From an uncultured Mycoplasma sp. (GTDB lineage: Bacteria; Bacillota_I; Bacilli_A; Mycoplasmatales; Mycoplasmoidaceae): a DNA stretch of 54,729 nucleotides. The DNA lies in contig CASDXH010000004.1 of NCBI GenBank assembly GCA_949285105.1, forward strand, positions 1-54,729. Direction: 5' to 3'. Shown here piece by piece: positions 8,106-13,432 of this stretch. The notes beneath the pieces were generated by a model, which saw nothing but the letters and a program-made list of their open reading frames with translations, ran no database searches and had not been told where the DNA came from. Each line of letters begins with the position of its first letter. The stretch's first letter is position 1. A program made the translations under genes and the position numbers.

Positions 8106-8726
8106 TTAAATCCTGCTAATAATAATTGAAAATATTTCTTCAACTATTTGTTCTATTTCTCTATTTGCATTTATTTTATAAACATTTGGTAAATCCAAAA
8201 CAATTTTATATCCATCGTTTATTTTTTTGATTTGATCACCACTAACAAAATCCATTCTATCAAGATTTTCTCTTAGTTCTTTAAGTCTTTTAATAGATGT
8301 TTCAACAGGTACATCTAGGTAAAAAATTAAGTCAGGTAAAAAATCACCAATACCAAATTTATTAACTTGTAAAACTTGTTCTATACCAATATTTCTAAAA
8401 TATCCTTGGTAAACAAGCGATGAATGAATAAATCTATCACAAAGAACAATTTTCCCACTCATAATTGAAGGAATTATTTTCTTTTTTACATGCTCGTTTC
8501 TTGAAGCTGCAAACAATAACGCTTCTGTTCTAACATCTATATCTTTAGACAAAATAATTTTTCTTATTTCTTCAGCAATTTCTGTACCACCAGGCTCTCT
8601 TGTCAAAATAAATTCTTTATCACCATTAAAATGAGATATTAATCTCTCAAATACTTTTTTTGATACAGTACTTTTCCCTGAACCATCAGGTCCTTCGAAT
8701 GTTATAAAATTTACTTTTTTTGCCAT
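8106..8726 (-). CDS. tmk: thymidylate kinase
   Basis: A 206-aa dTMP kinase. It has the P-loop EGPDGSGKST, the DR motif in LCDRFIHSSLVYQG and the substrate-binding LTREPGGTEIAEEIR. It converts dTMP to dTDP. ATG 8726 with AGGA upstream is preferred over an in-frame TTG two codons earlier. It is the first gene of the operon with holB, mnmE and tatD; the 3-base gap to holB supports co-transcription. Confidence 0.96.
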   Translation of the reverse strand: MAKKVNFITFEGPDGSGKSTVSKKVFERLISHFNGDKEFILTREPGGTEIAEEIRKIILSKDIDVRTEALLFAASRNEHVKKKIIPSIMSGKIVLCDRFIHSSLVYQGYFRNIGIEQVLQVNKFGIGDFLPDLIFYLDVPVETSIKRLKELRENLDRMDFVSGDQIKKINDGYKIVLDLPNVYKINANREIEQIVEEIFSIIISRI

Positions 8727-8839
8727 ATACAAGTCCTACTTTTTTTAATTAAAATAAATCATTTAAACAATTTATAATACATATATTAGTTTATATTTTT
8801 TTGCTTAAAAAATATATTTTTTTATAAAAGAGGCTAATT

Positions 8840-10447
8840 ATGGAATCAAAAAAATCTTTGCTGAATAACTTTCTAATTACTGATACAAAAGATGGAGCGA
8901 TTAGAATCAATTGTTCACAGAAGTTTACTAAAGATGTTTATTCAAATATCGAATCAGAAACATATGATAATTTTACAAATAATCCTAATATTATTAGTTT
9001 ATCCTTGTCTGCAAATAACGATTTAATTTCAAAGATTACAAATAAAGCTAAGGCTCTGTCATCAGTTGAAGAACTTAAAAATTTGTTAATTAAGTACAAT
9101 ATAAAATTAACAAAAGCTAAGTTGGAATCAATTGCCAAAAATTTTCAGGATAAAAACAAATTATTTACAATTCTTGGAAGAGAAATAAATTCAATATTTA
9201 AACAACTTGTTTCAATGACTAAGTTTGCAAAAAATAAGCTTAAAGAAGATGGCGTTTGATCTTTATATTTATGTCATGGTTTTTTGAAGGGTAGAATTCA
9301 AGATGGAACCTTCATAAAAGCTCCATTGGTTTTGATTCCAGTAGAAGTTAAACAATCTGAAGATAAATTTGTAATTTCTAAAATTAGTGAGCCTATATAC
9401 AATGAGAAATTGAATTTCTTAGTCGAAATAAATTATGGAATTAATGTAAACACAATATTTGAAAAATCATTAGATGAAACAAACCAAATAACAGTAAAAA
9501 AGATTCTTTCAATTTACTCAGCTGTTTTTAAATCAATTAATGTAAACCTAGATGTTAACCATAAATTACAAAAATATAAAAGCGAAGATATAGACGAGTT
9601 ATCTAATATAAGTGATTTAATAATTGATTATTCTATTGCTTTATCTTTATTAGATCCAACAGGTGGTAAAGCAAAAAAAGATATTATTGAAATACTTGAT
9701 AGAAATGAAAATCCCTTTGTCACATATTCAATATTAAAAAACAATTCAGAACTTGAAGCAAAGATAGCAAACAGTGATTGTATAGTTGAAATTAACAAAC
9801 CATTGAACATCTATCAAAAATACGCTGTTGCTTCAGCACTTGAAGATAACACAATTATATTTGGACCCCCAGGAACTGGAAAATCTGAGGTAATAGTAAA
9901 TATTGTTGCAAACATAATAAAACAAAACAAGTCTTGTATGATTGTTTCTGAAAAAAAAGCAGCTCTTGATGTTTTACACAACAGATTAAAAGCATTAAAT
10001 AAAATATCACTAAATGCATATGATGTTCATGATTCAAGTTCTTTCTATGGAAAGATTAACCAATTGCAACTTTTAATATCATCAAGCATTAATGAATTCA
10101 AATTCCATACATGAGAATCAAGATATGAACAATTAAAAGCTAATTATCTAAACATTAAAAAAATATCAGACGTTAATATTTACTCTCTAGATTTAAATGA
10201 AATAGTTAAATCAATTGAAGATAATGGAAAAACATATAACGAACAAACAAATTTAATAATTAATGAACTTGATAAAATTATTAAAGAAAAGAAAATCTCA
10301 CTTCTTGAGGGTTTTAACATAATGGGCATTTTAAAAAACCTTACCAAGAATTATGATGAAACTTTAGTTTATTTAAAAGAAAATAAACTAGTTGATTTAA
10401 AATATGAAAAGATATCAAAGTTTTTATCTAAATACGAAAAAGTCTAA
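8840..10447 (+). CDS. DUF4011-type superfamily I helicase, N-terminal part (frameshifted gene)
   Basis: This is the first 535 codons of a gene that originally ran to 12230 (about 1129 aa). The N-terminal region (to about residue 230) has the DUF4011 signature WSLYLCHGFLKG followed by APLVLIPVEV and the EPIYNEKLNFL stretch. The helicase P-loop GPPGTGKSEVIVNIV is near residue 341, followed by motif Ia around EKKAALDVLHNRL. The frame ends at TAA 10445-10447 just after GAAAAAGTC. Removing one A from the run of five at 10437-10441 would join it to the downstream frame as YEKSKDKEF. It has an AGAGG ribosome site and its own upstream region, divergent from tmk. Confidence 0.8.
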
Positions 10448-12230
10448 AGATAAAGAATTCCTTATATCAAACTTTGTATTTAACCAAAAAATTAACAACA
10501 AAACTTTTATAAACAAACTATTTAAAACTAATATTGAAAGAGTTGAATTTGATCAAGATACAATCATAAAGTTTTTAGAAGAAATTGAAAAACTTTCAAT
10601 TCAGTCAATTAACATTGATGCATTGCTACAACTCCAAAACATTGAATTAAACTTTGATCAATTTAGAGCAGCACTAATCCAAAAAGGCTTAATTGATAAT
10701 ATTGTTGACACTGATTTTGATTCATTCCAAGATGAATTTGAAAAATATATTGAGTATAAATCAAGTATTGCTAAAAATAATGATGAGGTTATATTAAATA
10801 GTTACCTAATTAATTTTGTAAAAATATATAACAATATATCAGAAGCTGAGAGACATGAAATAGATGATATGTTTTCAAGAGCAAGAATGAAAAGAAGACA
10901 AAATGTTAATATTTTTGCCACAAAGTTTTTTAATAAGTTAAAGTTGATTTTTCCGATATGAATACTAAATCCTAATAGAGCTTCAATTATTATCCCAAAT
11001 AAAAAAGATGTATTCGATTATGGGATTTATGATGAAGCGAGTCAGATGTTTTTAGAAAATGCTTTTTCATTAGTATATAGAGCAAAAATAAATGTTGTAT
11101 CAGGCGATGATAAACAACTTAAACCAACTTCTTTTTTTGGAAGTAGATATGAATCAAATGATTTAGAACTTTCGCAAGACGACGCTGAATCTTTATTAGA
11201 AAGAGCTAAATTATGTTTATGACCTTCATTTCATTTAAAAAATCACTATAGATGTGAAAGTGAATCATTAATAAAATTTTCAGCTGAAAACTTCTATAAC
11301 AACCAATTAGAATACACAACAAAAAATGAATCTTTTAAAAATTCAATTGACGTTATTGATGTAAAAGGAACTTGAAAAGATGAAACTAATGAAATGGAAG
11401 TAAAAAAAGTAATTGATCTTCTTTATGATAACTGAGATAAATACAACACAATCATGATAATTACATTGAACAAAAAACAACTTGATGCAATAGAAAAAGC
11501 ATTCATCAAATCTTTTGCAGATAAAAGGGAAATATTTACAAAATACGAAAAGGATTTGATTCTATTTAAAAACCTGGAGAACTGTCAGGGACATGAATCT
11601 GATTTAGTTATATTATCACTAGGTTATGGATATAACAGTGAAAATAAATTTACTAACTTCTTTGGTCCAATTTCTCAATCTGGCGGTTCTAACAGATTGA
11701 ATGTTGCAATAACTAGAGCTAAGAAGAAAATAATGGTAGTAAAAAGCTTTAAAGCAAGCGATATGAAGATTAACGAAGAAAACCCAGATTCTTTAATTTT
11801 CTATAAATACATCAATTTCTTAGATAATCACAAAACTAACAAATTGTTTAACAAGATAGATGATCATAATGAAAATGATAAGAAAAGATATGTTAAAGAT
11901 GTAATTAGTTATACTGAAAACTTAATAAAGAAAAACTCATCAAAACATTTTAAAGTAATAAGCGATATTAAAATTGGTAGTTGTTACATAGATTATGCAG
12001 TTTTTAATAATGACTCTTCAAAGATATTATTGGCAATAAACTTTGACCGTGTTTTTGATCAAAAATCATTCCAAAATACATTACATAATATATATCGTCA
12101 AAAATTTTTAGAGGATAGAGGATATAATGTTATAAATGTTGATGAAATAGAATGATATTTCAAGAATAAAATTATAAAGAAGTTAATTAGCAAAAAAATA
12201 GATGAGATGTTATTAAAGTATGAAGTTTAG
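10404..12230 (+). CDS. superfamily I helicase core and nuclease-like C-terminus (second part of frameshifted gene)
   Basis: This frame carries the rest of the helicase: motif II YDEASQMF, motif III GDDKQLKPTSFF, motif IV region HYRCESESLI, motif V QGHESDLVILSLG and motif VI NVAITRAKKKIMVV. The last 100 or so residues (ISDIKIGSCYIDYAVF, then INFD, then IYRQKFLEDRGYNVI) look like the Vsr/DUF559 type of PD-(D/E)XK nuclease fold. The acidic residue normally found in the iExD strand appears to be replaced. The nominal ATG at 10404 lacks a ribosome site, so it is probably not a true start. The end overlaps the next gene by 11 bases. Confidence 0.78.
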
Positions 12231-12672
12231 AATTGATAAAACAAAATCATTTTATAAGTTTTTAGAAAAACATAAAATGCACTTTCTTAAGAGTCAATTA
12301 AGAAAATGTGGAATTAAGAAAGCTAAAATTAAATCTTATGATTTTATTAATAATAAGTTCAATATTAATGTTCCAGTGAGTTATACAAATAAAACTTTAA
12401 AAGAAATAATAGTTAGCAAAAATAAATTAAAAAGAGTAAAAACAGAAAAGATTGTTGAGAATGTGGATTACTATATTTTGTTTTACAAGTCTCAAAAGGA
12501 AATGAGTAATGATGTATTTTTATCACTTGTAAGATACATGCAAGAAAATTTATCCAACTTTGCAAACTGTTTATATGGAACTTTAATTTACAATCAAAAT
12601 ATTTACACCATTAAGAAAGAAAATTTTAATGGTGTTGAAACTTATATTGAACTAAAAAAATATGTATATTAA
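12220..12672 (+). CDS. hypothetical protein, 150 aa
   Basis: A Lys/Asn-rich soluble-looking protein starting MKFRIDKTKSFYKFLEKHK. The start overlaps the end of the helicase gene by 11 bases in another frame, so the two were probably translated together. It has a basic N-terminal half with a Cys in LRKCGIKKAK, then a beta-rich C-terminal half. I recognise no domain. Conserved coupling to the helicase would suggest a helper role, but that is inference. It ends right at the terminator stem. Confidence 0.65.
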   Translation: MKFRIDKTKSFYKFLEKHKMHFLKSQLRKCGIKKAKIKSYDFINNKFNINVPVSYTNKTLKEIIVSKNKLKRVKTEKIVENVDYYILFYKSQKEMSNDVFLSLVRYMQENLSNFANCLYGTLIYNQNIYTIKKENFNGVETYIELKKYVY

Positions 12673-12736: not shown

Positions 12737-13432
12737 TTAAATTGAATTAACTTTAAATCTGTATCCCTTGTTCATTTTATTTTCAATATTATGAGAACCA
12801 ATTTTCTTTCTAAGCTTAAAAATATATTGTTGTACAAGCCCTGTAGAGTCGGTAGTTAAATCTGTTCAAATAATATTGAACAACTCTTCTCTGTCAAAGT
12901 ATTTTCCGGGTTCTGAAATCAAAGTTTTTAGAATTAGAAACTCAAATGTTGTTAAATCAACAAGTTTACCCTTCACTCAAACTTTTCTATCTATTAAGTT
13001 AATTGTTACATCATTTTGAGAAATAATGATGTTGTTTAATTTTTTAACATAGTTAATTCTTTGGATCATATTATCAAAAGTTAATGATAAAAGGTTAGGG
13101 CTAAACTGTTCATAAGATATACAGTATTCAACACCAGTTTTTATAATTTTTGAAAATAACTCATGATTAAATTTACTTGCAAAATAAATGAAGTAAGTAT
13201 GTGGATGAATTTCTTTTATTTTGTCTATTAAACGCTTTGTAATCATGCTTGGGTTAACATCATCAAATATTACTATTGATGAATTATATTTAACCAATTG
13301 ATTAATTTCTTCTGGCGAAATTACTATCCTACTATAAACCATTTTTTCTTCTAATAATAAAAACGCTTCACATAAAAAAGATTGCTTTTCTTGTTCTGAA
13401 ACTAAAGATATTAAAAATTTATTTGTAAACAT
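12737..13432 (-). CDS. OmpR/PhoB-family response-regulator-like protein with atypical receiver
   Basis: A 231-aa protein. The C-terminal 85 residues are a clear OmpR winged helix: [31 protein letters not shown], the recognition-helix region [13 protein letters not shown] and the wing [11 protein letters not shown]. The N-terminal 120 residues have the length and strand pattern of a receiver ([13 protein letters not shown], then YFIYFASKF, then [11 protein letters not shown]). Asp57/Asp58 could be the phosphosite. The acidic pair after strand 1 is absent (LISLVSE) and the conserved Lys near the end is Tyr, so phosphorylation is doubtful. No histidine kinase gene is nearby. Two TGA Trp codons split the frame under the standard code. 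Confidence 0.85.

Follow-up and report, generated by a model that had tools for sequence, protein, structure and literature searches.

A DUF4011 helicase gene with a Vsr-fold tail lacking nuclease residues, and a frame break in one mycoplasma genome that is a recent inactivation or a sequence error

Introduction

Positions 8840-12230 of a contig from an uncultured mycoplasma hold two overlapping reading frames that together resemble a helicase-nuclease protein of the anti-phage kind. The locus raises three questions: what the gene encodes, whether its intact product could cut DNA, and what the frame break represents. The window, meaning the whole stretch of 54,729 nucleotides that was analysed, is one entire contig of a 1.06-Mb mollicute genome assembled as a draft in 67 contigs. 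Since genes in the window read through TGA, the mycoplasma code (code 4, in which TGA encodes tryptophan) applies. A first-pass annotation, made from the sequence letters, had described the locus as a DUF4011-helicase-Vsr defence gene of the Hhe type that is broken by one base.

One gene in two reading frames

We confirm that 8840-12230 is one gene for a DUF4011 / UPF1-like superfamily I (SF1) helicase / Vsr-fold protein, carried in two overlapping frames (Table 1). ORF1, which terminates at a premature TAA, contains the DUF4011 region (aa 56-191; 50 bits in Pfam, well over the cut-off of 22.2), a clear AAA_11 match and the Walker A motif GPPGTGKS. ORF2 contains a clear AAA_12 match (2e-16), Walker B (DEASQ), motif III (GDDKQL), motif V (QGHESD) and motif VI (RLNVAITRA), as well as a match to the MTES_1575 model of Vsr-type endonucleases (REases) that, at 36.9 bits (E 4e-9), falls 1.3 bits short of its cut-off of 38.2. 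The full SF1 motif set is present but is spread over the two frames; it matches columns that are invariant among homologues, and the key motor residues are invariant in an alignment of 12 homologues. The motor belongs to the UPF1/SMUBP-2/DNA2 type and has SF1B-type motifs; the motor alone is what the protein has in common with those helicases. The frame of ORF2 is +1 relative to ORF1 (10404-8840 = 1564, which leaves a remainder of 1 on division by 3).

Table 1. Features of the helicase locus, in window coordinates
Feature	Position	Strand	Description
tmk (thymidylate kinase)	8106..8732	-	divergent neighbour that identifies the locus conserved across G000, G008 and G006
ORF1	8840..10447	+	code 4, 535 aa; DUF4011 and the beginning of RecA1 of the SF1 helicase
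Dual-open stretch in which the frame is lost	10401..10447	+	contains the five-A run 10437-10441; one single-base gap against the intact orthologue
ORF2	10404..12230	+	code 4, 608 aa; remaining helicase and Vsr-fold tail
PD-(D/E)XK / Vsr-fold domain, C-terminal, MTES_1575-like	11874..12227	+	catalytic Glu replaced by Asn (YID..INFD)
150-aa downstream gene	12220..12672	+	11-base overlap with the helicase gene; no known family

The annotation had proposed looking for intact orthologues in relatives, and two species have them. In G008, a member of the same genus with a single-contig genome, the orthologue is 1129 aa long and likewise lies beside tmk; ORF1 is 87.5% identical in amino acids to its residues 1-535, and ORF2 is 90% identical to the corresponding remainder. 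The DNA alignment between the window and G008 has 84.2% identity over 3391 columns and contains exactly one gap, of one base, so the earlier proposal of a single one-base break in a gene of about 1129 codons was correct. The orthologue of a third species, G006, is 1114 aa long and shares 46% identity with ORF1 and 53% with ORF2.

In both G008 and G006 the helicase gene is divergent from tmk and is followed by the same small gene (150 and 152 aa). The other members of the genus with a tmk match have other neighbours at tmk wherever the flank is readable, so the pair of helicase and small gene at tmk is found only in this sub-group; kin of 30-40% identity occupy other loci in other species. A search of 298 genomes gave clear matches to the 150-aa gene in no species but the three with the helicase at tmk, and two further weak matches. 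The gene is constrained (pN/pS 0.107), and an AlphaFold model of its product has a pLDDT of 36, which is too low to interpret.

The surroundings include some features of separate interest. In G008, an IS30-like transposase gene (L033 7999-8976, with HTH_38 and rve domains) adjoins the small downstream gene and is absent from the window. At 12737-13432 the window encodes an OmpR-type DNA-binding protein (Trans_reg_C) that is 98.7% identical to its G008 counterpart and has the lowest pN/pS (0.017) among the window genes compared; two-component regulators are usually scarce in this group of organisms. Nine clustered tRNA genes lie on the minus strand at 1710-2588.

Nature and age of the frame break

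The alignment places the lesion within a stretch of about 10 bases. The five-A run at which the annotation had put the loss of frame lies inside that stretch, but the alignment does not single the run out. Relative to G008, pN/pS is 0.124 for ORF1 and 0.112 for ORF2, compared with a median of 0.132 (interquartile 0.089-0.221) over 185 genes. With both halves at about the median, ordinary purifying selection has acted on them for almost the whole period since the two species diverged, which bears out the annotation's impression that both are well kept.

We surveyed frame splits by setting 444 kb from this genome against 800 kb from G008, which covered about 180 orthologues (179 of them well covered) and about 74,000 codons. 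Two frame splits appeared, one in the helicase gene and one in a 153-codon ORF (C1:46167-46624) that we reject as a broken gene because, judged by eye, it looks like an antisense ORF. The helicase gene is the only convincing frame split among the orthologues compared. Given that the only other split is probably antisense noise, indel errors are not abundant in this assembly, and this general explanation is ruled out for the 444 kb tested.

Our preferred reading is that the break is a recent inactivation, and we consider it probable as part of the overall explanation given below. An isolated sequencing or assembly error, in which case the strain would make the full-length protein, is the unlikely but credible alternative. 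There is a single lesion, both halves are under normal purifying selection, and the genome is a 67-contig draft, all as such an error would have it. The low indel error rate indicated by the survey argues the other way, as does the position of the lesion away from the longest homopolymers of the gene, which are runs of 7-8 A.

The annotation had also suggested a phase-type switch, the one of its three options that we reject. Tract-length switching is used by mycoplasmas for other genes, and slippage during replication at the A run, or ribosomal frameshifting, could in principle restore the full protein in some cells or in some rounds of translation. However, there is no long unstable tract at the break: a run of five bases is far too short, such A runs occur 222 times in the window and 21 times in the helicase gene, and a comparable tract is absent from the G008 orthologue, which needs no shift. 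Programmed -1 ribosomal frameshifting is rejected because the second frame is +1, not -1, and because the orthologues are read without any shift.

What speaks for switching or recoding is that two related genes are also split. Among about 57 copies of DUF4011 helicases that we read in detail, two more frame-split genes were found, both in single-contig genomes (L224 6744-9940 in G123 and L230 3548-7056 in G187). As in the window, their breaks fall in the variable insertion that separates the Walker A half of the motor from the Walker B half. However, the sites differ and the offset is -1 in these two genes and +1 in the window, so the breaks have no signal in common, and homopolymers are not enriched in the insertion. 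Some of the roughly 57 copies had been chosen because their C-half frames were short; the clustering of breaks is therefore biased and is suggestive at most. Short C-half frames at first seemed over-represented, mostly because of the way open frames were counted; read with code 4, nearly all of these genes are intact, and G123 and G187 alone have a true split. Altogether, we regard a switched or recoded gene as very improbable.

We give slightly less credence still to gene fission, in which the two frames would be made as two subunits that reassemble, with the split lying in a surface insertion. The position of the break in a variable insertion, the continued constraint on both halves and the ATG at 10404, where ORF2 opens, are what one would expect of a fission. 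But the same ATG is present in G008, where it does not share the frame of the intact gene and runs for two codons before a stop. It has therefore not evolved as a start, and in the window it is probably fortuitous. The split would also divide one RecA domain, and the recency of the break explains the constraint.

If the break is a recent inactivation, as we prefer, translation in this genome would end after residue 535, ORF2 would have no convincing start of its own, and Walker A and Walker B would never be on one chain, leaving the motor dead.

A predicted nuclease fold without its full set of catalytic residues

An AlphaFold2 model of the C-terminal tail, built from 37 aligned sequences, has a pLDDT of 89.8 and a core of helix, three strands, helix and strand as in the PD-(D/E)XK fold. 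Its best matches among solved structures are I-Bth0305I (Z 11.4), NGO0050 (10.8), BpuSI (10.1), the RAP domain of FASTKD4 (9.6) and Vsr (9.3), and Foldseek returned the same leader, I-Bth0305I (E 0.0036). The tail is thus predicted to have a Vsr-type endonuclease fold. Together with the DUF4011 match, this upholds the superfamily and the order of domains given in the annotation, which had named the failure to find either one as grounds for dropping its reading.

An active nuclease of the Vsr/MTES_1575 type requires the pattern Asp..Glu-x-Asp. In the window and in G008 it reads D..N-x-D, with (I)N in place of (I)E, and in G006 it reads D..N-x-N; the annotation was right that the central acidic residue is missing. 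Outside the family (we use the term for a GTDB-style grouping, in which our counts rest on 21 members), Glu-x-Asp is kept in 48/51 homologues and all three residues in 24/51, with Ser in place of the first Asp in 21/51, nearly all of them from Clostridia. Within the family, Glu-x-Asp is kept in just one of the 21 members (L035, G006:C14), and 20/21 are without the intact triad. In a tree of the helicase core the 21 members form a single clade (support 100/100), and L035 is nested inside it, so catalytic losses have been repeated rather than single. In a wider, non-random sample of mollicutes, the triad persists in long proteins (1501-1621 aa) and is often missing from shorter ones.

Among the clostridial homologues, a clade of sequences from metagenome-assembled genomes (L123-L150) has Ser, or Pro, in place of the first catalytic Asp and keeps Glu-x-Asp, which is a second and different route of active-site loss.

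Decay after the frame break is rejected as the cause of the missing residue in the window. Since it is missing too from the intact orthologues and from almost every member of the family clade, the loss is unrelated to the break, and the residues indicate that it came long before the break, as in most relatives in the family. Nuclease activity of the intact protein is therefore unlikely, judging from these substitutions.

Relation to known defence proteins

The best profile matches for both halves are PDC-S37, a candidate single-gene defence protein in PADLOC, and ProA (NF058533) in NCBIfam. PDC-S37 reached E 9e-68 against 5e-40 for Hhe in PADLOC, and ProA reached 3e-69 against 1e-48 for Hhe in NCBIfam. 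With the two halves scored separately, the best-matching stretches of PDC-S37 are 309-359 and 905-1341 of its 1550 profile positions. The halves reach 111.9 and 233.8 bits with ProA, short of the cut-off of 1500, and 52.8 and 165.7 bits with Hhe (NF042953), short of the cut-off of 2000. Hhe has the same domain order (DUF4011-helicase-Vsr), but its profiles are 1797-1911 positions long, its curated NCBIfam cut-off is missed about 10-fold, and the window gene is less similar to it than to PDC-S37 and ProA. We therefore reject membership in Hhe, and the label given in the annotation was too specific. At the level of sequence, kinship to defence proteins is clear, with PDC-S37 and ProA nearest and Hhe next. 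A literature search on ProA, on Hhe in mycoplasma and on MG140 found nothing useful.

PDC-S37 and ProA have the same order of DUF4011, SF1 helicase and MTES_1575-type endonuclease, but their models span 1550 and 1903 positions, whereas the window gene has about 1129 codons, has lost the catalytic Glu and has no C-terminal winged-helix domain (DUF3320) that Pfam could detect in ORF1 or ORF2. The long DUF4011 helicases of other mollicute families (about 1500-1620 aa) are alike in their domain set, and for Mbov_0647 the same set as in the window gene has been reported (PMC8249566). The long copies that we examined (1501-1621 aa) keep Asp..Glu-x-Asp, whereas the short clade to which the window gene belongs is mostly without it. 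Giant proteins of the MTES_1575 type combine HEPN, transglutaminase, SF1 helicase, Vsr endonuclease and winged-helix domains (PMC3710099). They share with the window gene an SF1 helicase followed by a Vsr-family endonuclease, but their HEPN, transglutaminase and winged-helix domains were not found here with Pfam.

Is the intact protein a defence protein or a housekeeping nucleic-acid helicase? The second option would be compatible with any reading of the break, and we consider it possible but doubtful. The gene stands alone with one small orphan gene among housekeeping genes, occupies the same locus in three species and evolves like a housekeeping gene. Most of the kin in the family are likewise surrounded by housekeeping genes (translations read by eye), and the nuclease appears dead. 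In P. aeruginosa, a DUF4011 gene that flanks a defence hotspot belongs to the core genome and is present in all isolates surveyed (PMC10250203).

The distribution of the gene points away from a housekeeping role. DUF4011 is present in 145 of the 298 genomes sampled in the order, so about half are without it, as are whole genera of the same family, and its loci differ between genera. Some kin are in defence surroundings: one (L041) adjoins an Eco47II-type restriction-modification pair, another (L052) adjoins an HSP90-type ATPase, and in G009 the helicase lies in an island (L050 3568-14448) with a C5 DNA methylase, a possible HNH protein, an HSP90-type ATPase and a Z1 protein. The nearest curated profiles, moreover, are those of anti-phage proteins. 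Based on kinship and context, we favor, on balance, a defence function for the intact protein.

Interpretation

The most plausible overall account is that 8840-12230 encoded, until its recent inactivation, a short, nuclease-dead DUF4011 / UPF1-like SF1 helicase / Vsr-fold protein, kin of defence helicases. The intact protein would use ATP to move along nucleic acid or to unwind it; it is probably descended from nuclease-helicase defence proteins related to PDC-S37, ProA and Hhe, and its residues suggest that nuclease cutting was lost in this lineage. The Vsr-fold tail may then bind nucleic acid or a partner, by analogy with the RAP domains of eukaryotes. The likeliest role would still be to protect the cell from foreign DNA or RNA, which the protein might strip, unwind or sense.

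A bolder and less likely reading is that in the short DUF4011 branch without the winged helix the nuclease became dispensable, with the active site lost many times and the fold and motor kept, which would amount to helicase defence without DNA cleavage. Genes of this branch may also tend to lose their frame reversibly in the insertion that lies between Walker A and Walker B, where all three split copies are broken.

The window gene is of a known kind, a variant without nuclease residues that has been recently inactivated or mis-sequenced in one genome. For annotation, such genes should not be labelled as active Hhe-type nucleases, nor as complete defence systems where the frame is broken. The frame break itself is ordinary; more useful is the clade of defence-like helicases in mycoplasmas in which the nuclease fold is kept and its catalytic residues have been repeatedly stripped. 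The claim that arises is that the motor, and not the nuclease, would carry the function in these DUF4011 helicases.
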